Shown here: piece by piece, positions 12,319 through 31,805 of the stretch
Position numbering within the stretch: position 1 is the stretch's first letter
How the letters are laid out: the number at the start of each line of letters is the position of its first letter
Assembly (NCBI GenBank): GCA_020721585.1
Contig: DYMK01000014.1
Coordinates: 1 to 50,008, forward strand
Source of the DNA: Sulfuricurvum sp.
Lineage (GTDB): Bacteria > Campylobacterota > Campylobacteria > Campylobacterales > Sulfurimonadaceae
Length of the DNA stretch: 50,008 bases
Reading direction: 5' to 3'
Program-made: the position numbers and the translations under genes
Notes under the pieces: model-generated
Seen by the model: only the letters and a program-made list of their open reading frames with translations
What the model was told of the DNA's origin: nothing
The model's database searches: none

Positions 12319-13386
12319 ATGAACTATTTTTTTGGATTTTCCCGATGGAAGCATCGATTTATGCCCCCTTTTTTTGATCAAAAACCGATTTTTATTAACC
12401 CATTTTTAGGTAAAGGGCATTTGGAAAAAGCGCTTGCCAAAGGTTTAACGCCAAAGGATTCGATCTACATCTGGGGACGAAGAGGGGTTGAAGCGGTTGA
12501 AGCGTATGCTCATGCCCATGGAAATCCTCTTTTTCGAGTGGAAGATGGTTTTATCCGTTCGGTAGGATTGGGATCGGATTTGACCCAACCCTATTCGTTG
12601 GTTGTGGACAGTAGAGGCATCTATTTTGACCCAACGCACGCCAGTGATTTGGAAGTTATCCTTGAAACGACCTTTTTTGAGGAGGCACTTCTTCAGCGAG
12701 CGCAAACCCTTAAACGCTATTTAGTGGACAAAAAACTCTCTAAATACAATGTGTATGATGCCCCCTTGCCCCCTTTTTCTTCCACTAAATCCATTATTGT
12801 TGTCCCCGGTCAGGTGGAAGATGATGCTTCCATCGCGTATGGCGCTAAGGGGATGAGTAATTTGGAACTATTACGTCAGGTTCGTTTTCATCGTCCACAG
12901 GGGTACATTATCTATAAGCCTCACCCTGATGTGTTAAGCGGCAACCGTATTGGGAAGGTAAAAACAGACGATGCCCTTGCGTATTGTGACCAAATTGTGA
13001 CTGAAGTGAGTATTGACAGCGTTCTTGGCTATGCGGATGAGATTCATACCATGACCTCTTTGGTAGGATTTGAGGGGTTGATGCGGGGGATTAAGGTGGT
13101 CACCTACGGTCTCCCTTTTTATGCAGGATGGGGATTAAGTGAAGATCATCAACCATCTCAACGACGAACGCGTCGATTAACGATTGATGAATTGGTTGCG
13201 GGGACGTTAGTGGTGTATCCACGCTATATTCATCCGCAAACATTGAAACGGTGCGAGATAGAGGACCTTTTAGAAGCGTTGGAAGGGCAACGGCTTACGT
13301 ATCAAAAATCGGTATGGATTAAAATTCGCAATGAAATCAGTCGAAAATCACAACGACTGCTCCGTTATGCTAAAGGGATAGGATGA
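12319..13386 (+). CDS. kpsC: KpsC-like capsule beta-Kdo transferase, single domain
   Basis: Predicted glycosyltransferase that extends the poly-Kdo linker on the phospholipid anchor of group 2 capsules. Family blocks are clear: 'RVEDGFIRSVGLGSDL' near 74-90, 'YSLVVDSRGIYFDP', 'IVVPGQVEDDASI', 'YKPHPDVLSGNR' near 201-212, 'TSLVGFEGLMRG' and 'TYGLPFYAGWGL'. Canonical KpsC is about 670 residues with two such domains that add alternating linkages; this protein has 355 residues and one domain. The second activity must be absent, supplied elsewhere, or carried out by this one domain. The gene starts directly after recR and overlaps the next by four bases. Confidence 0.88.
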   Translation: MNYFFGFSRWKHRFMPPFFDQKPIFINPFLGKGHLEKALAKGLTPKDSIYIWGRRGVEAVEAYAHAHGNPLFRVEDGFIRSVGLGSDLTQPYSLVVDSRGIYFDPTHASDLEVILETTFFEEALLQRAQTLKRYLVDKKLSKYNVYDAPLPPFSSTKSIIVVPGQVEDDASIAYGAKGMSNLELLRQVRFHRPQGYIIYKPHPDVLSGNRIGKVKTDDALAYCDQIVTEVSIDSVLGYADEIHTMTSLVGFEGLMRGIKVVTYGLPFYAGWGLSEDHQPSQRRTRRLTIDELVAGTLVVYPRYIHPQTLKRCEIEDLLEALEGQRLTYQKSVWIKIRNEISRKSQRLLRYAKGIG

Positions 13387-14510
13387 ACGAAAAAATCAAA
13401 AAACGGATTGTCTATTACATCGGAGGATTTGATCCGCGTGGAGTGCGTCACTACCATAGTATGTACAAAGAACATTTTACGAAACAAAGTGCTATTAATG
13501 GGATGAGTGGGAGCGTCTCTTCACGTAAAAAAGTCCATAATCATCTCTACCAATGGGAAATTGAGGCGGATGACCATGGTCATAAGGTGCATACCACCTA
13601 TAATTTTTTGAGTTGGGATGATATAGTCCGAGAACAATGGTCATCGGGTTTAGTGAGTTATTATAAGGATATTGTACTTTTTATCCGAGGGTATCTTCTT
13701 AGTGGTCTTTTTCTCCTTTTTACCAAAGAGTCTCCCAAACAATTGATTGCTGGATTATACCCTTTGATCTATTTAATGGGGGGGGTAATACTTGCTTTGT
13801 ATGGAAGTTTGCAAGTGTATTCTCTTCTACAGGGGTGGATTGGAAGTATCGTAGGGATGAGTCTTGGTTTTGGAATAGTGATTGCTTTGCAACGATTAGC
13901 GTCTAAGATTGGTGTTTTCTGGCTTCTGCGTATCTATGTTTTTTGTTTGCATTGGAGTAAAGGGCAAATTCAGGGTATGAATCAAAGAATAGATACGTTT
14001 GCGCACGAGCTGGCAACGACTATGAATCATTCAGATGATGTGGAGGAAGTTTTACTGGTTTCGCACAGTGTTGGGACGATTGTAGCCATCAGTGTGGTTG
14101 CGCGAGCGTTGGAAAAAAGCGACCATTGGGATAAATTTGGGATGGTCACATTGGGTGAGTGTATCCCCTTGGTGAGCTTTCAACCCAATGCGCATCACTA
14201 TCGAGAAGAATTGGTCAAACTGGGCAAGCAAAAAAACCTTGTATGGCTTGATTATACGTCTCCCATTGATGGAGCGTGCTTCCCTTTATACGATTTTATC
14301 CCGCTTGAGGAAAATTTGGTGATAAAACGGTCATTTCCCCGCTATCTTTCACCACGCTTTCATACACTTTTTACTACAATAACGTATAAAAAGCTCCGAC
14401 GGGATTGGTATACCACCCATTTTCTCTACCTTATGTCGACCCAAAAGAGTGGAGAATATGATTATTATGCTTTGACAGCGAGTGCTAATTCTATCCGAAA
14501 ACTTTTTTAA
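13383..14510 (+). CDS. Membrane-bound alpha/beta-hydrolase-like protein in the capsule anchor operon
   Basis: Protein of 375 residues with no named family that I can assign firmly. The N-terminal 'KRIVYYIGGFDPRG' looks like the first strand and oxyanion loop of an alpha/beta hydrolase. Three hydrophobic segments lie at about 96-113, 121-143 and 150-172. The motif 'LLVSHSVGTIVAIS' places a candidate nucleophile Ser229 in an SHSVG elbow; possible acid and base residues lie later ('WLDYTSPIDGACFP', 'RFHTLF'). Campylobacter jejuni has an integral membrane protein gene (Cj1412c) in the same place, between a P450 and kpsS/kpsC, so it may be the same family. A lipase or esterase acting on the lipid anchor is an inference. 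Confidence 0.65.
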   Translation: MNEKIKKRIVYYIGGFDPRGVRHYHSMYKEHFTKQSAINGMSGSVSSRKKVHNHLYQWEIEADDHGHKVHTTYNFLSWDDIVREQWSSGLVSYYKDIVLFIRGYLLSGLFLLFTKESPKQLIAGLYPLIYLMGGVILALYGSLQVYSLLQGWIGSIVGMSLGFGIVIALQRLASKIGVFWLLRIYVFCLHWSKGQIQGMNQRIDTFAHELATTMNHSDDVEEVLLVSHSVGTIVAISVVARALEKSDHWDKFGMVTLGECIPLVSFQPNAHHYREELVKLGKQKNLVWLDYTSPIDGACFPLYDFIPLEENLVIKRSFPRYLSPRFHTLFTTITYKKLRRDWYTTHFLYLMSTQKSGEYDYYALTASANSIRKLF

Positions 14511-14527
14511 CCCCAAAGGAGTCGCTC

Positions 14528-15919
14528 ATGTCCTCATGCCCTTTTCACCAACCTTTTTTCCCCCCACCCTTGAAAAATAAAGCATCTCTTTTTTTTACGT
14601 TTTTTAAAAAAAGACGTTCATGGCTTGATGGTCTGTATGAGCGAAGTTACAGCATGAAAATGGGACGGGTAAAGATGCCTGGATTGGACTTGCACGTGGT
14701 GAATCAACCTGAATTAATCCATAGGGTGATGGTTGAGGAGGTCAAAGCGTTCCCCAAAAATCAGCTTTTAGAACATCTTCTTGAACCCTTGTTGGGGGAG
14801 AGTATTTTTACGACCAATGGGGAACAATGGAAAAAACAGCGAGAAATGCTTAACCCCTCTTTTGAAATGACCCGTATTTCTCATGTTTTTGGATTGATGA
14901 ATGATGCTGTTAAAGAGTTACGGGTACGTCTTAATGGACAGGGAAAAGAGCATCACCTTGATATTGACCCTGAAATGACCTACGTGACTGCGGATATTAT
15001 TTTCCGTACCATACTCTCCTCACGCCTTGATCGTCATGCAGCGATTCAAATTATTGAAGCGTTTGTGATGTTTCAAGAAGAGACCGCACGAACCGCGATG
15101 CGTACCATGTTTAAAATTCCCCGTTGGTTATGGTTTTTGAGTGGTGAACGTAAACGGATTAAAGCGGGTAATTTAGTGCGGGATGTTTTGGCGGATATTA
15201 TCCGTCCACGCTACGATGCAGTCACTTCGCATACAATGGGAGAGGAAAAAGATATTCTTGCTTCCTTATTGCTTGTCGTGGATGCGGATACGGGTGCGAG
15301 ATTTTCGTTTGAAGAGATTCTTGATCAGGTTGCTATGTTGTTTTTGGCAGGTCATGAGACTTCAGCGAGTGCTTTAACGTGGAGTATGTATTTATTGGCG
15401 TTATACCCTGAAATTCAAGAGCGGGCGTATCAGGAGGTGATGAGTATTGTGGGTGAGGGGGAGTTTGATCCTTTCCATATTAAGCAAATGGCCTTGATCA
15501 CCAATATCTTTAAAGAGACCCTTCGTTTGTATCCCCCTGTAGGATTTTTTGCGCGTGAAAGTAAGGATGAGACGACCATGCGGGATAAAACCATTGTTAA
15601 AGGTGCTTCAGTAGTGGTGGCTCCGTGGCTCATTCATCGTCATCCCGATTTTTGGGACAATCCCAATGGCTTTGATCCGGATCGTTTTAATGATCCTTCT
15701 TCCATGCATAAAGATACCTATCTCCCTTTTGGGATGGGACCACGTATTTGTATTGGGGCTTCTTTCGCGATGCAAGAAGCGGTACTTATTTTGGCAACGA
15801 TCATTCGAGATTTTACCATTACGCTAGAAGACAATTTTGTTCCTGATGTCGTGGGACGATTGACCGTTCGTTCGGCTAATGGGATGCACATTGTATTAAC
15901 GCAACGAGAGGGACGATGA
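14528..15919 (+). CDS. Cytochrome P450, CYP172-like
   Basis: Haem-thiolate monooxygenase of 463 residues. The I helix has 'FLAGHETSASALTW' (about 272-285), the K helix ExxR is 'KETLRLYPP' (about 328-336), the meander has 'FDPDRF', and the haem loop is 'FGMGPRICIG' with Cys408 as axial ligand. A short basic, hydrophobic N-terminal region (about 15-30) could attach it to the membrane. P450s are rare in Campylobacterota; the known C. jejuni example, CYP172A1 (Cj1411c), is also beside kpsS and kpsC. The neighbourhood points to a lipid or capsule-anchor substrate, but none can be read from the sequence. Redox partners are not encoded nearby. Confidence 0.95.
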   Translation: MSSCPFHQPFFPPPLKNKASLFFTFFKKRRSWLDGLYERSYSMKMGRVKMPGLDLHVVNQPELIHRVMVEEVKAFPKNQLLEHLLEPLLGESIFTTNGEQWKKQREMLNPSFEMTRISHVFGLMNDAVKELRVRLNGQGKEHHLDIDPEMTYVTADIIFRTILSSRLDRHAAIQIIEAFVMFQEETARTAMRTMFKIPRWLWFLSGERKRIKAGNLVRDVLADIIRPRYDAVTSHTMGEEKDILASLLLVVDADTGARFSFEEILDQVAMLFLAGHETSASALTWSMYLLALYPEIQERAYQEVMSIVGEGEFDPFHIKQMALITNIFKETLRLYPPVGFFARESKDETTMRDKTIVKGASVVVAPWLIHRHPDFWDNPNGFDPDRFNDPSSMHKDTYLPFGMGPRICIGASFAMQEAVLILATIIRDFTITLEDNFVPDVVGRLTVRSANGMHIVLTQREGR

Positions 15920-16275
15920 AAGAACGATTAGCGGGATTTTTGCTCATGTGTGCGGTAGTTCCCTTGGCGATTATAGGGTATTTGATTATCTGTTATGCGG
16001 GGTTTTTTGGTCATCCCTCTCGTGCTAGAGCAGGAGTTCGAGCATTGGATCATTTTGTTAATGCAGCAGTTTTGAATGGTTACGCGTGGGAATCAATATC
16101 CTCGCATGCGTGGAGAGAACGGGAATCCAGATGGTGGGCACCATGGGTGATTAAAATTACCAATTATTTTCAACAGGATCATTGTATGCGTGCCAATAGA
16201 CGGGAGCAAGCCCTTATTGATTTGATGTTAGATCGGGGATTGCATCAACAAACCATTGGAAAGACACAAAAATAA
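15916..16275 (+). CDS. Small membrane protein of the capsule anchor operon
   Basis: Unrecognised protein of 119 residues. A hydrophobic segment at about 7-30 ('FLLMCAVVPLAIIGYLIICYAG') anchors it; the rest is polar, Trp- and Arg-rich ('HAWRERESRWWAPWVIKITNYF') and should be on one face of the inner membrane. It overlaps the P450 stop by four bases (ATGA) and ends three bases before kpsS, so it is produced with both. Its position between P450 and KpsS suggests a role in the same anchor pathway, perhaps as a membrane adaptor. Function is unknown. Confidence 0.7.
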   Translation: MKERLAGFLLMCAVVPLAIIGYLIICYAGFFGHPSRARAGVRALDHFVNAAVLNGYAWESISSHAWRERESRWWAPWVIKITNYFQQDHCMRANRREQALIDLMLDRGLHQQTIGKTQK

Positions 16276-16278
16276 TCA

Positions 16279-17493
16279 ATGGTCTCGTATGGAATAGCGT
16301 CATTTAAAGATAAAAAAGTACTTATGTTGCAAAGTCCTGTGGGTCCTTTTTTTAAACGTCTTGGGAAAGATTTAGAAAAAGTGGGGGCAGAGGTGAGTAA
16401 AATTAACCTCAATGGAGGCGATTGGTTTTTCTCTGACAAAGGGGCAATCAATTTTACCGGTAAGCCAGAAGAATGGGGTGTTTTTTTTGCTTCTTTTATA
16501 AAAAATCAAAAAATAGATCGACTTCTTTTGTTTGGGGATTGTCGGGAATACCATCGGATTGCCCATACACTTGCCCATGCTCAGGGGATAGAAATTGGGG
16601 TCTTTGAAGAAGGCTACGTCCGCCCTGATTACATTACCTTTGAACGTTTTGGGGTCAATGGATTCTCCTTGCTGCCTCGCAATCGTCCGTTTTATGATCA
16701 GTTGAATGACGATAAGGTGACTATTTCTCCCACGATTTCTGTCGGCAATAGTTTTTACGCTATGGCATGGTGGGCATTTTTGTACTATTTTTTTAGTGCA
16801 TTGTTGTTCCCTATGTTTCGTTTTTATCGTCACCATCGTCCCCTGAATCCATGGGAGATAATGTACTGGATTCGATCTTTTTGGCGTAAACAGTGGTATA
16901 AAGTAGCAGAACGAACACGAGAACAGACCTTAATCACGCAAGAGTCAAAAAATTATTTTTTAGTCCCGCTTCAAATTTCTACCGATGCGCAAGTGTGCGC
17001 ACACTCTCCGTATCATTCGGTAGAGGATTTTATCCACAGTGTTATTGCTTCCTTTGCAGAAAAGGCATCCAACGAGAGGATATTGGTGATTAAGCACCAT
17101 CCGCTTGATCGTGGATACCATAATTATAAAACGGTGATTACCAAAGTGGCGTTTCAGTATGGAATAATGCAACGCTGTTGGTATATTCATGATCAACACT
17201 TACCTACCTTATTGGATCATGCATTGGGGGTTGTTGTGATTAATTCAACGGTTGGACTTTCAGCACTGCATCATCATGTCCCCCTTAAGGTGTGCGGAAC
17301 GGCTATTTACGACATGGAGGGATTAACCTACCAAGGGTCACTGGATACTTTTTGGGATGAAGCTCCTTTCTATGCAATGGATAAGGAACTATTTAAAAAT
17401 TTTAGGGGCTATATTATTAACGATAAGCAGATTAATGGAAATTTTTACCGTAGATTAGAGGGAATGGGAACTTTCTCAGGTTTAAAGTGGTAG
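16279..17493 (+). CDS. kpsS: Capsule anchor Kdo transferase KpsS
   Basis: In group 2 capsule systems KpsS adds the first beta-Kdo to phosphatidylglycerol at the inner face of the membrane. The 404-residue protein begins with the family block 'ASFKDKKVLMLQSPVGPFFKRL', here split across residues ~7-28, and has 'DRLLLFGDCREYH', 'GVFEEGYVRPDYIT', 'HHPLDRG' and the late 'VVINSTVGLSALHHHVPLKVCG' (residues ~327-348). A hydrophobic patch near 154-180 may help membrane contact. No good ribosome site precedes the ATG, so coupling with the upstream gene is likely. The order KpsC-hydrolase-P450-membrane protein-KpsS is a compact unit. Confidence 0.92.
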   Translation: MVSYGIASFKDKKVLMLQSPVGPFFKRLGKDLEKVGAEVSKINLNGGDWFFSDKGAINFTGKPEEWGVFFASFIKNQKIDRLLLFGDCREYHRIAHTLAHAQGIEIGVFEEGYVRPDYITFERFGVNGFSLLPRNRPFYDQLNDDKVTISPTISVGNSFYAMAWWAFLYYFFSALLFPMFRFYRHHRPLNPWEIMYWIRSFWRKQWYKVAERTREQTLITQESKNYFLVPLQISTDAQVCAHSPYHSVEDFIHSVIASFAEKASNERILVIKHHPLDRGYHNYKTVITKVAFQYGIMQRCWYIHDQHLPTLLDHALGVVVINSTVGLSALHHHVPLKVCGTAIYDMEGLTYQGSLDTFWDEAPFYAMDKELFKNFRGYIINDKQINGNFYRRLEGMGTFSGLKW

Positions 17494-17625: not shown

Positions 17626-18735
17626 TTGGCACTCACATACAACTGGTTTAAGCGTCATCGCCTTTTTACTGCTACGGTAGTTATCCCTACTTTGATTGCT
17701 TCTTTTTATTATGGAGTGATTGCTTCTGATGTTTATATCAGTGAATCGCAATTTGTGGTGCGTGCACCTGATAAGCCCAGTATGAGTGGCATTGGTGCCA
17801 TGTTACAAAGTGCTGGCGTTTCGAGTTCTGGTGATAGCGATGCCAATACCGTTAAAGATTTTATTCTCTCACGGGATGCGCTGTACTCATTGGATCGGAC
17901 ACTTCACTATCGTCAAAAATATACTTCAGATACGATTGATCACTTTAATCGTTTTAATGGTTTTGGGATTAACGATAGCTTTGAATGGTTATTTAAATAC
18001 TATCAAGAGCATACCATGGTAACAGTGGATACTGCCTCTCCTGTTGTGACGTTGGATGTTCAGGCGTTTAATGCTAAAGATGCCAAAGCGATGAATGAAC
18101 ATCTTCTTCTCCTAAGTGAGCAATTGGTGAATCGTCTTAATGAACGTTCACGGAAAGATATGATTGGTTTTGCTGAAAATGAGGTAGCCCGTGCCATGAT
18201 TCGTGCTAAAGCTGCTTCTTTGGCCGTTTCCAATTATCGAGAAAAAAAATCGGTATTTGATCCTGAAAAACAATCTGCCCTACAGCTTGAGTTGGTGAGT
18301 AAAATGCAAAGTGAGCTTATCGCGACCAAAGCACAGTTAGCGCAATTGATGAGTCTCTCTCCTGAAAATCCCCAAATTGCGTTATTACAAAATAAAATTA
18401 CGAATCTAACGTCGCAAATAGCAGCAGAATCGTCCAAGGTAACCGAAGGGGATGTCTCCTTTGCCCATAAAACCTCAGAATACGAACGATTGATGCTCGA
18501 ACGCGATTTTGCAGGAAAACAACTCGCCATAGCCTTTGCTTCGTTGGAACAAGCCCGCAATGAAGCGCTTCGTAAGCACGTTTATTTGGAGCGCATCAGT
18601 CAACCCAACGAACCTGATTATCCCTTAGAGCCACGAAAAATACGTTCAATTGCGGCTATTTTCATGTTAGGGCTTATGCTCTGGGGAATTTTAAGTATTT
18701 TGAATGCTGGAGTGCGTGAACATTATGATCGCTAA
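17626..18735 (+). CDS. kpsE: Capsule export inner-membrane protein KpsE
   Basis: Polysaccharide co-polymerase/export-type protein that links the KpsMT transporter to the outer-membrane channel. The 369 residues show the classic layout: membrane helix at about 12-30, a periplasmic domain beginning 'YISESQFVVRAP', a long coiled coil from about 190 to 330, and a C-terminal membrane helix at about 343-360 after 'YPLEPRKIRS'. The start is TTG 17626, with AAGGA eight bases upstream. A 132-base gap separates it from kpsS and may hold a promoter. Its end overlaps kpsM. Confidence 0.93.
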   Translation: MALTYNWFKRHRLFTATVVIPTLIASFYYGVIASDVYISESQFVVRAPDKPSMSGIGAMLQSAGVSSSGDSDANTVKDFILSRDALYSLDRTLHYRQKYTSDTIDHFNRFNGFGINDSFEWLFKYYQEHTMVTVDTASPVVTLDVQAFNAKDAKAMNEHLLLLSEQLVNRLNERSRKDMIGFAENEVARAMIRAKAASLAVSNYREKKSVFDPEKQSALQLELVSKMQSELIATKAQLAQLMSLSPENPQIALLQNKITNLTSQIAAESSKVTEGDVSFAHKTSEYERLMLERDFAGKQLAIAFASLEQARNEALRKHVYLERISQPNEPDYPLEPRKIRSIAAIFMLGLMLWGILSILNAGVREHYDR

Positions 18736-19519
18736 AGATCAAATGACTTTTTTCGACCAATTTCGGATCCAAAAGCGGGTTATTTGGGCATTAATATTAC
18801 GTGAGATGATTACCCGCTATGGTCGTGAGGGGTTAGGTATTCTTTGGATTATTGCTGAACCTGCTATGTTTATTGTGGGGGTTATGACCATTTTTTCCCA
18901 ACTACATTCGGGAGAAGCCGGTCATTCAGTTGCGGAATATTTAGCCGTTAGTTATCCGACATTGTTACTCTGGCGTAATGGAACAGGACGCGTCACCAAA
19001 GCGGTTGAAGTCAATAAAGCCCTTTTGCATCATCGTCCTGTTCGCCCGATGGATATTATCTATTCACGCATTATTTTAGAATTTGCCAGTAGCATAGCTG
19101 CTTTTTTCTTTCTTTATCTTATTTTTGTAACCCTTGGCATTTGTCAGTGGCCGGATGATCTTTTTACGATGATTATTGGTGGATTGATGGTGATTTGGTT
19201 TTCGTTTGCCTTTGTGTTAATTATGGCAGCATTAGCGGAGTTAAGTGATGCGATTGAGCGTGTTTCGCATATTATTTTGTATTTAATGCTCCCTTTTTCA
19301 GGGGTATTTTTGGCTGCTCATTTGGTTCCTCAGCCGTATCGAGATTATTTATTACTCTTCCCTTTAGTTGATTGCGTTGAGTGGTTTCATGCGGGGTATT
19401 ATGGTCATCGTATGGAGACCTATTATTTTCCCGTCTACACCGTTATTGCTAACCTAGTGGTCACTTTGTTTGCTTTTGCATTGACCAATATCGCGATTAA
19501 ACGGGTGCAAAGTATATGA
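18725..19519 (+). CDS. kpsM: Capsule ABC transporter permease KpsM
   Basis: Inner-membrane half of the ATP-driven capsule exporter. The ABC-2 type permease of 264 residues has six predicted membrane segments and family blocks 'LILREMITRYGREGLGILWIIAEP', here at residues ~22-45, 'NKALLHHRPVRPMDIIYSR' and the late 'LFPLVDCVEWFHAGYYG'. The start at 18725 lies within the end of kpsE (11-base overlap); a further in-frame ATG at 18743 is possible. Followed by kpsT after 13 bases. Confidence 0.93.
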   Translation: MIAKDQMTFFDQFRIQKRVIWALILREMITRYGREGLGILWIIAEPAMFIVGVMTIFSQLHSGEAGHSVAEYLAVSYPTLLLWRNGTGRVTKAVEVNKALLHHRPVRPMDIIYSRIILEFASSIAAFFFLYLIFVTLGICQWPDDLFTMIIGGLMVIWFSFAFVLIMAALAELSDAIERVSHIILYLMLPFSGVFLAAHLVPQPYRDYLLLFPLVDCVEWFHAGYYGHRMETYYFPVYTVIANLVVTLFAFALTNIAIKRVQSI

Positions 19520-19532
19520 TGGATTACAGTAA

Positions 19533-20186
19533 ATGTTAGAATTAAAAAATATTTGTAAATCGTATCCTATCCATCATGGAAAATCGGAACGTTTAATCCT
19601 TGATGATGTCAACTTTCGCATAGAGAGAGGGGAGAAGTGGGGAATTTTAGGGCGTAATGGTGCAGGAAAATCAACCCTTATCCGCATTATCAGTGGTTCA
19701 GACCTTCCCCAATCGGGGAGTGTTACGAGCGATATGTCCATTTCGTGGCCATTGGCTTTTGGGGGTGCTTTTCAAGGAAGTTTAACGGGACGGGATAATG
19801 TGAAGCTTATCTCCCGTATTTATGGAGTTGATTTTCATAAAACATTGAAGCTTGTGGAGGATTTTGCTGAGCTTGGGGACTATCTGAATGAACCAGTCAA
19901 AAGTTACTCCTCAGGGATGGTTTCCCGTTTAGCCTTTGCGATTTCGATGTCGGTCGAGTTTGATTGCTTTTTGATCGATGAGGGGATGTCGGTGGGGGAT
20001 CACCGTTTTCATCAGAAGTGTAATGTTGAACTTTTTGATAAACGGGGTGATCGTGCGATGATCATTGTCGCCCATCAAGTCGATTTGATCCGAGCCCATT
20101 GTGATCATGCGGCTGTTTTGGAAAAAGGTAAGCTCATTATTTTTGATTCCGTTGATGAAGCGATTGCAATGTATGAGGGATTGTAG
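19533..20186 (+). CDS. kpsT: Capsule ABC transporter ATP-binding protein KpsT
   Basis: Energises capsule export with KpsM. In 217 residues it has Walker A 'GRNGAGKST' at 40-48, the degenerate ABC signature 'YSSGMVSRL' typical of KpsT, Walker B 'FDCFLIDEG' and the switch histidine in 'MIIVAHQVD'. Length is normal and no C-terminal carbohydrate-binding extension is present, as expected for group 2 capsule exporters that recognise the Kdo linker instead of a variable glycan. Confidence 0.96.
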   Translation: MLELKNICKSYPIHHGKSERLILDDVNFRIERGEKWGILGRNGAGKSTLIRIISGSDLPQSGSVTSDMSISWPLAFGGAFQGSLTGRDNVKLISRIYGVDFHKTLKLVEDFAELGDYLNEPVKSYSSGMVSRLAFAISMSVEFDCFLIDEGMSVGDHRFHQKCNVELFDKRGDRAMIIVAHQVDLIRAHCDHAAVLEKGKLIIFDSVDEAIAMYEGL

Positions 20187-21870: not shown

Positions 21871-24663
21871 GTGAAAAAAAATATATTTTTCAGAGCTTTT
21901 GTAGGTTTTTTTGCTAAAAATATAATGCAAGAAATGTATCAAGGATTATTAAATCGAGAAGCAGATGTAGAAGGCTTAAAAGCTTACACAGATGCATTGC
22001 AAAAAAATAAAATCTTATCTAAGTTTTTATCAGAGATGTCCACCTCTCAGGAAGCATGGGAAAAAAATCTTTATGCTCATTCAGAACAGATTGTTGATAT
22101 TTATTACCGTGGTGTTTTAGGACGAGAACCTGATGAAGCGTCTTTGGGTTATAGTGAACGTATTAAACAAGGTGAAAGCCTTGAGAATATCCTCACTGCG
22201 ATTGTTTCTTCAGACGAGGCATGGCATCGTCAAACCTCTGAACATGCAGCTCAACTGGTGGCTTTGGCCTACCGTGGTGTTTTAGGACGAGAACCTGATG
22301 AGAGTGGTTTAAATGAATACACAAAGCATTTGCGGAAAAATGGCGATTATGAAGCCATCTTGCGATCTCTAAGTGGTTCTCGCGAATTGAAGGATCACAT
22401 TAAAGAAGTAGATAACTATGAAAATTTTTCACAAATCAATGGTCTGAGAGACTACTCTTTGATATTCCTTGACCACCTTTCTTTTTTGCCATGGGTAATG
22501 GCGATTACTGACTATTTAAGTCGGAATTGTGGATGTAAAACGGTTTTGGTAACACGGGATCGTTCAAAAGAAATATCGCATTGGGCGTTCTTCTCACCAG
22601 CTGTTTCGTTGGTGCTAAGCAACGATGAATTCGAGCGTAGTATGAAGCTATTAACAAATCGCCCTAAGATGCTCGTGGTTCATGCATTCTTAGGATCTAA
22701 AGATAAAGCTCGCAAGATTGATACTTTTTTGGATGCGGATCTGATCTTGTATGGTGACGGTTCGACTAACTTTACTAATACTTCTTATCAAGGTTATCGT
22801 ACAAAAGGCTTGCTTTGTTTTGGTTACGAACAGCTTCACGAAACTCATGGTCATCGTATCAGACAAGATCTTCCTTTGCTGGGTATTGTGCCATGGCGTA
22901 GCGTGTTTGGATACTACTGTGAGATTGCTAAGCATCATTCGCAGGTGTTGCCGAAAACGCCCTCGCCTCGTGCAACTAGTATGTTATTTCTCCGTTATTG
23001 GCAAGCGGGTCGATACCAAATTTCGGAAGAGGTCATCATCCATGCACTGACCCAGTTTTTGAGCGAGCATATTGCGCAAAACGAAATTCTTGTTATCAAG
23101 GGAGACTATCGTTGTTCAACGACGATCCTTGAGCAGCTGTGTGCAGCTGCCACTGCGTATGGCGTGACGGTATTGAGTTATGAGAGCTACTTGAAGTGCT
23201 GGGGTTCGAGTGCGGATGGCTCACTGCCTTTTGAGATGACGGTGACTGCGCCAATGCTGCAAGCTGTCAAAAACTATCTCGTGCTTGATTCCTCTTTTGC
23301 CCTGACCTTACCTTATTTTCTTAAAAAACTGGGATTAAGCGGCAGCACTCGGATTGTGAGTGGCATTACTTCAAATGCGTTTTCTAAATCGGATTCAGAC
23401 CGTGAAATACCAAAAATCCGTGAGTTTGTTAAACATTACCGAGCGACGCTTGCCGATTTGGTGCAATCGCTTCAATTTCAAGACCACGATGATTCCTGTT
23501 GGTCTGTCGATTTCGATCCACAGAGTATCGATGTGTCACATTTGGATCAAGAGATTTATAAAGAAAATTTGCTCCCATTTAATGGTTTTTCGGGTGCGGT
23601 CATTTATGTACCAGAGCGCCAGTGGTTAACTTATACGCTTGCACTAGCCCAACAGCTTGCCAGCGAAGAGGTCAATATTCTCTTCGTTACCCCAAGGGGT
23701 GTTCGATTTGACTTTGCCCATCCCGATTACTTGTATGCACAAATGGAAATGGATCACTTTGATCGTGCCGTACGGTATGGTGATAGAGTATCAATCCGTC
23801 GCCTGTATGTTCATTCTTATGGTTGGAAGAATGATATTCAACAACTCACTAACCTCTGCAAGACAGCTCAACTCTGTTTTTATGGGGATGGATTTAAGAA
23901 TGAGTTTGCGAAACCAAGACATGAGCAAAGTGTTTTTGAATGGGTGGATTTTGGGTATTCGCTTTTTGACTGGGCAACTCCAAAGCGTATAGTGTCTTAC
24001 AGCGAATGGTTAAAGCAAATACCGTTGGTGTATCCAATCATTCAGCCATCTATTCCGCCGATTGAGGCAGATGTTTTGGTTTGCCTCAGATATTATGGCA
24101 GTGGACCTTACCTGTTTAATGAGGAACAATTAAAGAGATTATTCTGGCAAACCATCAAAGTTGTGCTTAAACCAGGATGCACGGTCATTATCAAGAGCGA
24201 CAAGCGAGGCCCGAAATTGACTGAAATCGTCAAAACATTGATCACAAGTCAGCATGACGGACCAGTCATTGATCTTGCTGATCAACTAGACGCTCTAGCC
24301 GATGAATCAGTTGAAGTGATCCTGCAAACACCCATGCTGGAAAAGATAATGTCATTTATTGTGTTTGATAGCTCTTTGAGCTACATCTTGGCACACCATC
24401 CTGCCATTAAACCAGATACACAAATTTTGCTTGGTGCTGCATTGGATTCTTTGGAGCAATCTGAAGTAGAGAGTTGCCAATTTGATCATGACACCCAGTT
24501 GGCTCAAGAAGAAGGGCGTGCTGAGCGAACTTATGAGGCTGCTCTTAATACCATCAATTTCTACAGTACGCGTTATGCGGATGCACTTGTTAAAGAAGAT
24601 TTCCCAGTGGAACAGCTTGAAAAGGGACTCTATTTGATACGCAAATCACAAAAAAAATTGTGA
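21871..24663 (+). CDS. Large protein with three DUF4214 repeats and two polysialyltransferase-like modules
   Basis: Unusual 930-residue protein. Near the N-terminus are three DUF4214-type repeats, each with 'Y.G(L/V)L.RE.D..GL' (about 23-37, 73-87 and 132-146). Two homologous modules follow. Module 1 (about 195-500) has 'LYGDGS' (~292), 'FLRYWQAGRYQISEE' (~373), 'LVIKGDYR' and 'VLDSSFA' (~471). Module 2 (about 570-900) has the matching 'FYGDGF' (~670), 'LRYYGSGPYLFNEE' (~737), 'VIIKSDKRG' and 'VFDSSLS' (~830). These resemble bacterial polysialyltransferase-type enzymes. It is probably a cytoplasmic bifunctional capsule glycosyltransferase. The start is GTG 21871 six bases after the previous gene. 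Enzyme class is inferred from motifs only. Confidence 0.65.
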   Translation: MKKNIFFRAFVGFFAKNIMQEMYQGLLNREADVEGLKAYTDALQKNKILSKFLSEMSTSQEAWEKNLYAHSEQIVDIYYRGVLGREPDEASLGYSERIKQGESLENILTAIVSSDEAWHRQTSEHAAQLVALAYRGVLGREPDESGLNEYTKHLRKNGDYEAILRSLSGSRELKDHIKEVDNYENFSQINGLRDYSLIFLDHLSFLPWVMAITDYLSRNCGCKTVLVTRDRSKEISHWAFFSPAVSLVLSNDEFERSMKLLTNRPKMLVVHAFLGSKDKARKIDTFLDADLILYGDGSTNFTNTSYQGYRTKGLLCFGYEQLHETHGHRIRQDLPLLGIVPWRSVFGYYCEIAKHHSQVLPKTPSPRATSMLFLRYWQAGRYQISEEVIIHALTQFLSEHIAQNEILVIKGDYRCSTTILEQLCAAATAYGVTVLSYESYLKCWGSSADGSLPFEMTVTAPMLQAVKNYLVLDSSFALTLPYFLKKLGLSGSTRIVSGITSNAFSKSDSDREIPKIREFVKHYRATLADLVQSLQFQDHDDSCWSVDFDPQSIDVSHLDQEIYKENLLPFNGFSGAVIYVPERQWLTYTLALAQQLASEEVNILFVTPRGVRFDFAHPDYLYAQMEMDHFDRAVRYGDRVSIRRLYVHSYGWKNDIQQLTNLCKTAQLCFYGDGFKNEFAKPRHEQSVFEWVDFGYSLFDWATPKRIVSYSEWLKQIPLVYPIIQPSIPPIEADVLVCLRYYGSGPYLFNEEQLKRLFWQTIKVVLKPGCTVIIKSDKRGPKLTEIVKTLITSQHDGPVIDLADQLDALADESVEVILQTPMLEKIMSFIVFDSSLSYILAHHPAIKPDTQILLGAALDSLEQSEVESCQFDHDTQLAQEEGRAERTYEAALNTINFYSTRYADALVKEDFPVEQLEKGLYLIRKSQKKL

Positions 24664-31330: not shown

Positions 31331-31473
31331 CGTCCGAGGAGGTTTCGGCTTCTAGGGAAGATTCCCACCCTTGTGAGGGGACAAATGAGGCGATGAAAAC
31401 CCTCTTTATCCGGATGGAGACCGCTGAAGAACGGCTGGAATTTGAAGCATGGTTGGTGGATTTATGGAACTAA
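31318..31473 (+). CDS. Small hypothetical protein, 51 residues
   Basis: Frame from ATG 31318, within the end of leuB, to TAA 31471-31473, within the start of the next gene. It reads '[20 protein letters not shown]' first and ends '[10 protein letters not shown]'. The frame bridges exactly the gap between two coupled genes, and overlaps of 13 and 10 bases at its ends suit a translated operon member. A shorter start at 31393 ('[20 protein letters not shown]') would also preserve the acidic helical end. No family is recognised. Confidence 0.5.
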
Positions 31474-31805
31474 GAGAACTGATTTTATCGACCTTGGCAG
31501 AACTGGAAGAAGAGGTGGTTCATACCTCCTCGATCGAAGAAGAAAAGGTGCTTGAACTACCGCAAGAGACCATAAATGCTATCCACGAAGAGGAAATTCT
31601 TTCCGAAACAACGGTGACTTCCAGAGGGGAAGAAGTCCTTTTTTTGGAGGGGATGAGAGAACGCCTTTTGGTCTTATGTGAGGGGTTGCAATCCCCTGAG
31701 GTGGTAAACCTCGAAGCGAAATTGGAGATAACCCTCCATTTTTTAACCTATCTTTTGGCTACGATTGAGCAGCGTCTTGGGTGTTATGAAAAAGGAATAG
31801 CGTGA
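31464..31805 (+). CDS. CiaD-like conserved Campylobacterota protein
   Basis: Acidic, helical protein of 113 residues starting at ATG 31464. The N-terminal '[17 protein letters not shown]' and the C-terminal 'RERLLVLCEGLQSPEVVNLE' followed by 'LEITLHFLTYLLATIEQRL' resemble the end of Campylobacter CiaD-like proteins, which in C. jejuni are encoded close to purU. The middle is low-complexity and Glu-rich. It overlaps purU by four bases (GTGA) and the small upstream frame by ten. In this probably free-living host a host-invasion role is unlikely; the ancestral role is unknown. Confidence 0.55.
   Translation: MELRELILSTLAELEEEVVHTSSIEEEKVLELPQETINAIHEEEILSETTVTSRGEEVLFLEGMRERLLVLCEGLQSPEVVNLEAKLEITLHFLTYLLATIEQRLGCYEKGIA

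Follow-up and report, generated by a model that had tools for sequence, protein, structure and literature searches.

The group 2 (ATP-binding cassette transporter) capsule pathway of Escherichia coli and Neisseria, with its transferases KpsS and KpsC for 3-deoxy-D-manno-oct-2-ulosonic acid (Kdo), is among the closest described systems to the locus reported here. The E. coli capsule is anchored on phosphatidylglycerol (PG) or lyso-PG (PMC7694667, PMC10148158), and in a structure of the transporter, one acyl chain of a modelled Kdo-PG sits in the canyon of KpsM (PMC11041684), so that acyl-chain chemistry could matter for export. The other relevant precedent is Cj1411c, a cytochrome P450 from the capsule locus of Campylobacter jejuni. 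This protein is 83% membrane-bound, its spectrum and spin state shift on addition of the inner-membrane fraction and not of the cytosolic fraction, and deletion mutants show reduced capsule staining, survival in serum and invasion, with recovery upon complementation (PMC3784454). The same publication, from 2013, treats the P450 alone and states that E. coli has no P450. Here, we analyze a 50,008-nucleotide stretch of DNA from Sulfuricurvum sp. (contig DYMK01000014.1, positions 1 to 50,008; ‘the window’ refers to this whole stretch), in which the gene for an orthologous P450 stands between the genes for a membrane-embedded alpha/beta-hydrolase (Hyd) and a small single-span membrane protein (Mem119). 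The three genes, referred to below as the trio, lie among the kps genes.

We propose that Hyd, the P450 and Mem119 form an accessory inner-membrane unit that modifies lipids for the KpsS/KpsC capsule pathway, with the anchor lipid as the presumed substrate, and we give this reading a probability of about 0.5. More specifically, the P450 would hydroxylate an acyl chain of PG or of the Kdo-PG glycolipid in the cytoplasmic leaflet, Hyd would act on that lipid too, by cleaving or exchanging an acyl ester, and Mem119 would tether both enzymes to the membrane. The result would be a capsule borne on an anchor of distinct chemistry.

The three proteins are present at full length in the same 31 of 349 Campylobacterales genomes, and their genes are always adjacent. 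Carriers include C. jejuni, C. coli, C. volucris, several Helicobacter, Poseidonibacter and an Aliarcobacter, and the order Hyd-P450-Mem119 was kept in all nine relatives of a first sample of this order. Because the genes recur in more than 30 genomes, nearly always with less than 20 bases between them, the arrangement is not a matter of chance. In the window, coordinates confirm the tight coupling described by the first-pass annotation: four-base overlaps (ATGA) join the upstream KpsC-like gene to Hyd and the P450 gene to Mem119, while gaps of 17 and 3 bases separate Hyd from the P450 gene and Mem119 from kpsS, respectively. In one further genome (L105, 14884-15416), an intact Mem119 gene lies next to a P450 remnant (the C-terminal 55 residues), Hyd is missing, and kpsC and kpsS are about 10 kb away; we read this as a decaying copy of the trio.

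Evidence for a role in capsule biosynthesis comes from the association with KpsS, for which presence was defined by E < 1e-100. KpsS was detected in 41 of the 349 Campylobacterales genomes, namely in 30 of the 31 with the trio and in 11 of the 318 without it (Fisher p ~5e-33), in line with the co-occurrence with kps genes anticipated by the first-pass annotation. Genome counts are not independent, owing to shared ancestry, and the safer figures are those at genus level (6/7 with the trio versus 7/79 without, p ~2e-5) and in Sphingomonadaceae, where KpsS is found in 8/11 genomes with Hyd versus 24/139 others (p ~2e-4). The link extends beyond gene adjacency. In five genomes (G013, G045, G059, G098 and G123) the trio lies at some distance from kpsS or on another contig and KpsS is nevertheless present, in one Campylobacter group the trio adjoins a KpsD-like export gene, and proteins of the PF05159 family (KpsC/KpsS) occur in 9/9 outlier genomes checked. 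The lone trio genome without KpsS probably reflects its assembly: what is apparently the same genome carries Hyd close to where one contig stops and a PF05159 fragment close to the end of a second contig. Furthermore, Hyd divergence tracks KpsS divergence across 25 loci (r = 0.91), a correlation that shared ancestry alone may produce. The trio thus depends on the KpsS pathway while being dispensable to it, and its near-exclusive occurrence in bacteria with KpsS is what leads us to regard modification of the lipid anchor as its probable function.

Hyd is a lipase-like hydrolase embedded in the membrane. An AlphaFold2 model built on an alignment of 33 relatives is of high confidence (predicted local distance difference test, pLDDT, 92.1; predicted template modelling score 0.92) and has a nucleophile elbow composed of strand 222-228, Ser229 within VSHSVG and helix 231-243. 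A hydrophobic two-helix membrane hairpin (residues ~118-175) is inserted ahead of the nucleophile strand, so that the model presents Hyd as one hydrolase domain with an inserted hairpin and not as two fused parts, a hydrolase and a distinct membrane domain. Ser229 is kept in 52/53 relatives, while Asp290, Asp296 and His346 are invariant in 53/53. We predict a triad of Ser229, His346 and probably Asp296, which lies in a loop after a strand, presumably the usual acid position, or alternatively Asp290. The serine elbow and fold that the first-pass annotation had read from the sequence are therefore borne out by the model (pLDDT 92), and the remaining candidate triad residues come from the alignment. 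In a Sphingomonadaceae relative (L100, 8484-9734) the serine is replaced by glycine (GHGLGA); this gene has no recognised P450 neighbour, its genome has no detected KpsS, and it perhaps encodes a non-catalytic copy.

A second-look structural aligner placed Hyd closest to the DDHD domains of Nir2 (Z 12.6) and Nir1 (12.1), the phospholipase Tle3 (11.9), TesA (11.6) and PGAP1 (11.1), followed by lipases and esterases. Hyd has the alpha/beta-hydrolase fold in common with the DDHD domains, with Tle3, with the glycosylphosphatidylinositol-inositol deacylase PGAP1 and with bacterial lipase A, from all of which it differs by its hairpin insertion and an identity of only 10-11%. Because the top matches are nearly tied, we name the superfamily, alpha/beta-hydrolase according to the model, and not a family. 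A plain Foldseek search of the model against the PDB gave nothing significant (best E 0.1), and no family scored above cut-off for Hyd in Pfam, NCBIfam, PHROGs or solved-structure sequence searches. PF07819 (PGAP1-like) gave sub-cut-off matches in 4/33 family members (best E 0.0027); no DDHD profile is among the Pfam results listed for Hyd, though the Nir2 and Nir1 structures rank first and third. Since Hyd has no apparent signal peptide and the loop between the hairpin helices is short, its catalytic domain is most likely on the cytoplasmic side, where KpsS and KpsC act.

The P450 gene is complete, as first annotated, and its product carries AGHET, ETLR and PFGMGPRICIG, with both the heme-binding FxxGxRxCxG and the ExxR signatures. 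P450s are assigned to one subfamily at >55% identity to the founding member, a level exceeded relative to Cj1411c (62%; locus L043), which we take, as the first-pass annotation did, to be CYP172A1. The nearest solved P450 sequences by profile are CYP97A3 (LUT5) and CYP102/P450 BM3-type enzymes (~163-185 bits). Both oxidise lipids, and by profile the window P450 thus stands closest to lipid and fatty-acid hydroxylases; they belong to families different from that of the window P450, which has no fused reductase. The C. jejuni locus has the same Hyd and Mem119 neighbours (Cj1412c/Cj1410c) in the same kps context, as the first-pass annotation had stated for the P450 and a membrane protein. The trio follows kpsC-kpsS in C. 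jejuni, whereas in the window it stands between the KpsC-like gene and kpsS. Among open-licence papers, only the 2013 publication on the P450 and a single association table turned up for the trio or for Cj1412c/Cj1410c. The first reading of the module as conserved but undescribed is thus right on conservation (31 genomes) and only partly right on the second count, the P450 having been studied in 2013 (PMC3784454). In C. jejuni subsp. jejuni 414 (L042), kpsS is split into two adjacent open reading frames of 225 and 166 residues, which suggests a frameshift or phase variation.

Mem119 has a single hydrophobic span (residues ~2-33), followed by a short, highly conserved domain; about 40 of its 119 residues are invariant across 25 relatives. 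Its model is of low confidence (pLDDT 73) and gave no useful structural match. Weak matches to two uncharacterised phage families (phrog_3342 and phrog_34710) suggest a possible origin of Mem119 among phage proteins; a search of a phage genome collection gave no match. A further genome from the genus of the window (L103, 4487-4750) encodes an 87-residue protein with the Mem119 core motif that matches phrog_3342.

Features of the capsule locus are collected in Table 1.

Table 1. Coordinates and supporting evidence for the trio and the surrounding kps genes in the window.
Feature	Position	Strand	Evidence
KpsC-like, half-length (355 residues, single C-type beta-Kdo transferase module)	12319..13386	+	PF05159 2e-38
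Hyd, membrane-embedded alpha/beta-hydrolase (375 residues)	13383..14510	+	AlphaFold model, structural matches, residue invariance (33 and 53 relatives)
Cytochrome P450, Cj1411c orthologue	14528..15919	+	PF00067 3e-84, heme and ETLR motifs
Mem119, small single-span membrane protein (119 residues)	15916..16275	+	Alignments, hydrophobic span
KpsS, beta-Kdo transferase starting the capsule linker on PG	16279..17493	+	PF05159 3e-82; NF050054 1.9e-138, below the model's 600-bit cut-off
KpsE, KpsM, KpsT (capsule export, downstream context)	17626..20186	+	TIGR01010 9.5e-110 for KpsE

Downstream of kpsS, the products of 17626-18735, 18704-19519 and 19533-20186 match the KpsE, permease and ATPase genes of an E. 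coli K1 kps locus. With KpsS, KpsE, KpsM and KpsT all encoded in the window, components of the KpsS/KpsC pathway are present and, together with a KpsC-type enzyme, are common to the window and the E. coli/Neisseria pathway. Compared with the E. coli K1 locus, the window adds Hyd, the P450 and Mem119, and its KpsC is cut to one module; in the one K1 locus inspected, kpsC lies next to kpsS with no trio gene. The trio was first described as lying between KpsC and KpsS, which holds for its position and not for a full KpsC. The KpsC-like protein is 44% identical to the C half of C. jejuni KpsC and 32% to the N half, and a PF05159 profile search of the source genome found no member besides this protein and KpsS. 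With no N-type KpsC module found in the genome, the Kdo linker may be very short. A monofunctional, single-module KpsC-C-like enzyme is already known (PMC10148158), so that the single module weakens the label ‘standard E. coli type’ and not that of a kps pathway; the likeness of the two enzymes is taken from the published description and not from a sequence alignment. Also within the capsule locus, a 930-residue DUF4214-repeat protein (21871-24663) is encoded between a glycosyltransferase gene and an HMGL-like aldolase/KdsB pair. Elsewhere in the window, 31449-31805 encodes a small protein with a CiaD-like domain (PF21862).

Relatives of the trio are also found outside Campylobacterota. Methylotenera has the order Mem119-Hyd-P450 followed by KpsS, and Sphingomonas and Novosphingobium have Hyd-P450 without Mem119. 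On a conjugative plasmid of Polaromonas JS666 (L106, 9597-16146), genes for a half-KpsC, a family 28 (GT28) glycosyltransferase, Hyd, the P450, Mem119 and a second Hyd stand in a row, near type I secretion genes. On a plasmid of Methylorubrum extorquens CM4 (L108, 9947-12507), a Hyd homologue overlaps a GT28/EryCIII-like glycosyltransferase gene by four bases. A contig binned as Candidatus Kuenenia (L052) carries two tandem Hyd-P450 pairs at 73% G+C; as a probable binning contaminant, it was left uncounted and we did not retain a spread of Hyd-P450 to Planctomycetota. Tentatively, and with less confidence than we place in the accessory unit itself, we suggest a horizontally mobile, P450-dependent form of anchor editing in Campylobacterota and some beta- and alphaproteobacteria, which would yield an oxidised (hydroxyacyl) or re-acylated PG-Kdo anchor and thereby a new capsule terminus.

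Several observations weigh against assigning the trio to the capsule anchor. In Paracoccus and most Sphingomonadaceae, the Hyd-P450 pairs have no kps genes beside them, KpsS was not detected in 3/11 Hyd-bearing Sphingomonadaceae, no P450 lies near the Hyd homologue at the Methylorubrum locus, and the genome with the decaying copy (L105) has Mem119 with only a P450 remnant and without Hyd. The C. jejuni Cj1411c deletion mutant lost lipooligosaccharide (LOS) staining along with capsule staining (PMC3784454), and the C. jejuni anchor has been described as an ordinary diacylglycerol phosphate (PMC11800397). The latter speaks against a plain lyso end product in that organism; it is compatible with acyl-chain modification, that is hydroxylation with hydrolysis or exchange.

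The pairs of Hyd and P450 genes without kps neighbours, and Hyd with a GT28 enzyme in Methylorubrum, imply that the wider Hyd family may act on other lipids. The trio might instead supply an altered lipid of the membrane or of LOS, such as a phospholipid in hydroxylated or lyso form, that the cell needs to assemble its envelope at large, its link to kps reflecting lipid demand during capsule export. The joint loss of capsule and LOS staining and the unlinked pairs of Paracoccus and Sphingomonadaceae would fit such a role, and the lysophospholipid content of C. jejuni membranes is reported to reach very high levels (PMC12709257). We nevertheless consider it rather unlikely, since co-occurrence with KpsS is near-obligate and the trio is absent from most KpsS-negative Campylobacterales.

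Less probable still is that the polysaccharide itself is the target of the P450 and Hyd, which would then modify a capsule sugar with an acyl or other substituent. The location of the trio inside capsule loci would agree with this, but the P450 and Mem119 are highly conserved while other capsule-locus genes vary, the trio is placed among the constant kps genes, and both Hyd and Mem119 have membrane segments. We likewise regard as improbable a scheme in which a P450-hydroxylated lipid serves as glycosyl acceptor, on the pattern of rhamnolipid or sophorolipid synthesis, and Hyd hydrolyses an acyl ester or a lactone. Translational coupling of Hyd to GT28/EryCIII-like glycosyltransferases in Polaromonas JS666, where a half-KpsC lies upstream, and in Methylorubrum points in this direction; against it, KpsS uses the glycerol head group of PG, and no GT28-type glycosyltransferase was identified beside the trio in the window, the flanks at other loci being annotated in part. 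Finally, a strong form of the first-pass reading would make Hyd the missing step to a lyso-PG anchor, a general deacylase for all group 2 capsules, which a lipase-like fold in the right operon might suggest given that lyso-PG anchors exist and their deacylation is assigned to no core kps enzyme. We hold this to be highly improbable and not supported, because no trio gene is present at the inspected E. coli K1 locus, in a species whose capsules are anchored on lyso-PG or PG (PMC7694667, PMC10148158), 11 KpsS-bearing Campylobacterales lack the trio too, and a diacyl anchor has been described for C. jejuni (PMC11800397).

The KpsS pathway without the trio, in those 11 genomes and the K1 locus, marks the trio as an accessory modification and not a missing general deacylase. 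Taken together, the trio is an accessory variant of the known KpsS/KpsC pathway, one member of which, the P450, was already linked to the capsule by genetics. Since 2013 a capsule phenotype has been on record for the C. jejuni P450, but neither a substrate nor partners. Its place in a constant set of three genes that includes a lipase-type hydrolase and goes with KpsS in distantly related bacteria makes a testable pathway of this orphan P450, and the link to KpsS points to PG or the Kdo-PG anchor as the candidate substrate. If the proposed anchor modification is true, capsule anchors would be more diverse than expected from the E. coli model, with consequences for capsule retention, shedding and purification.

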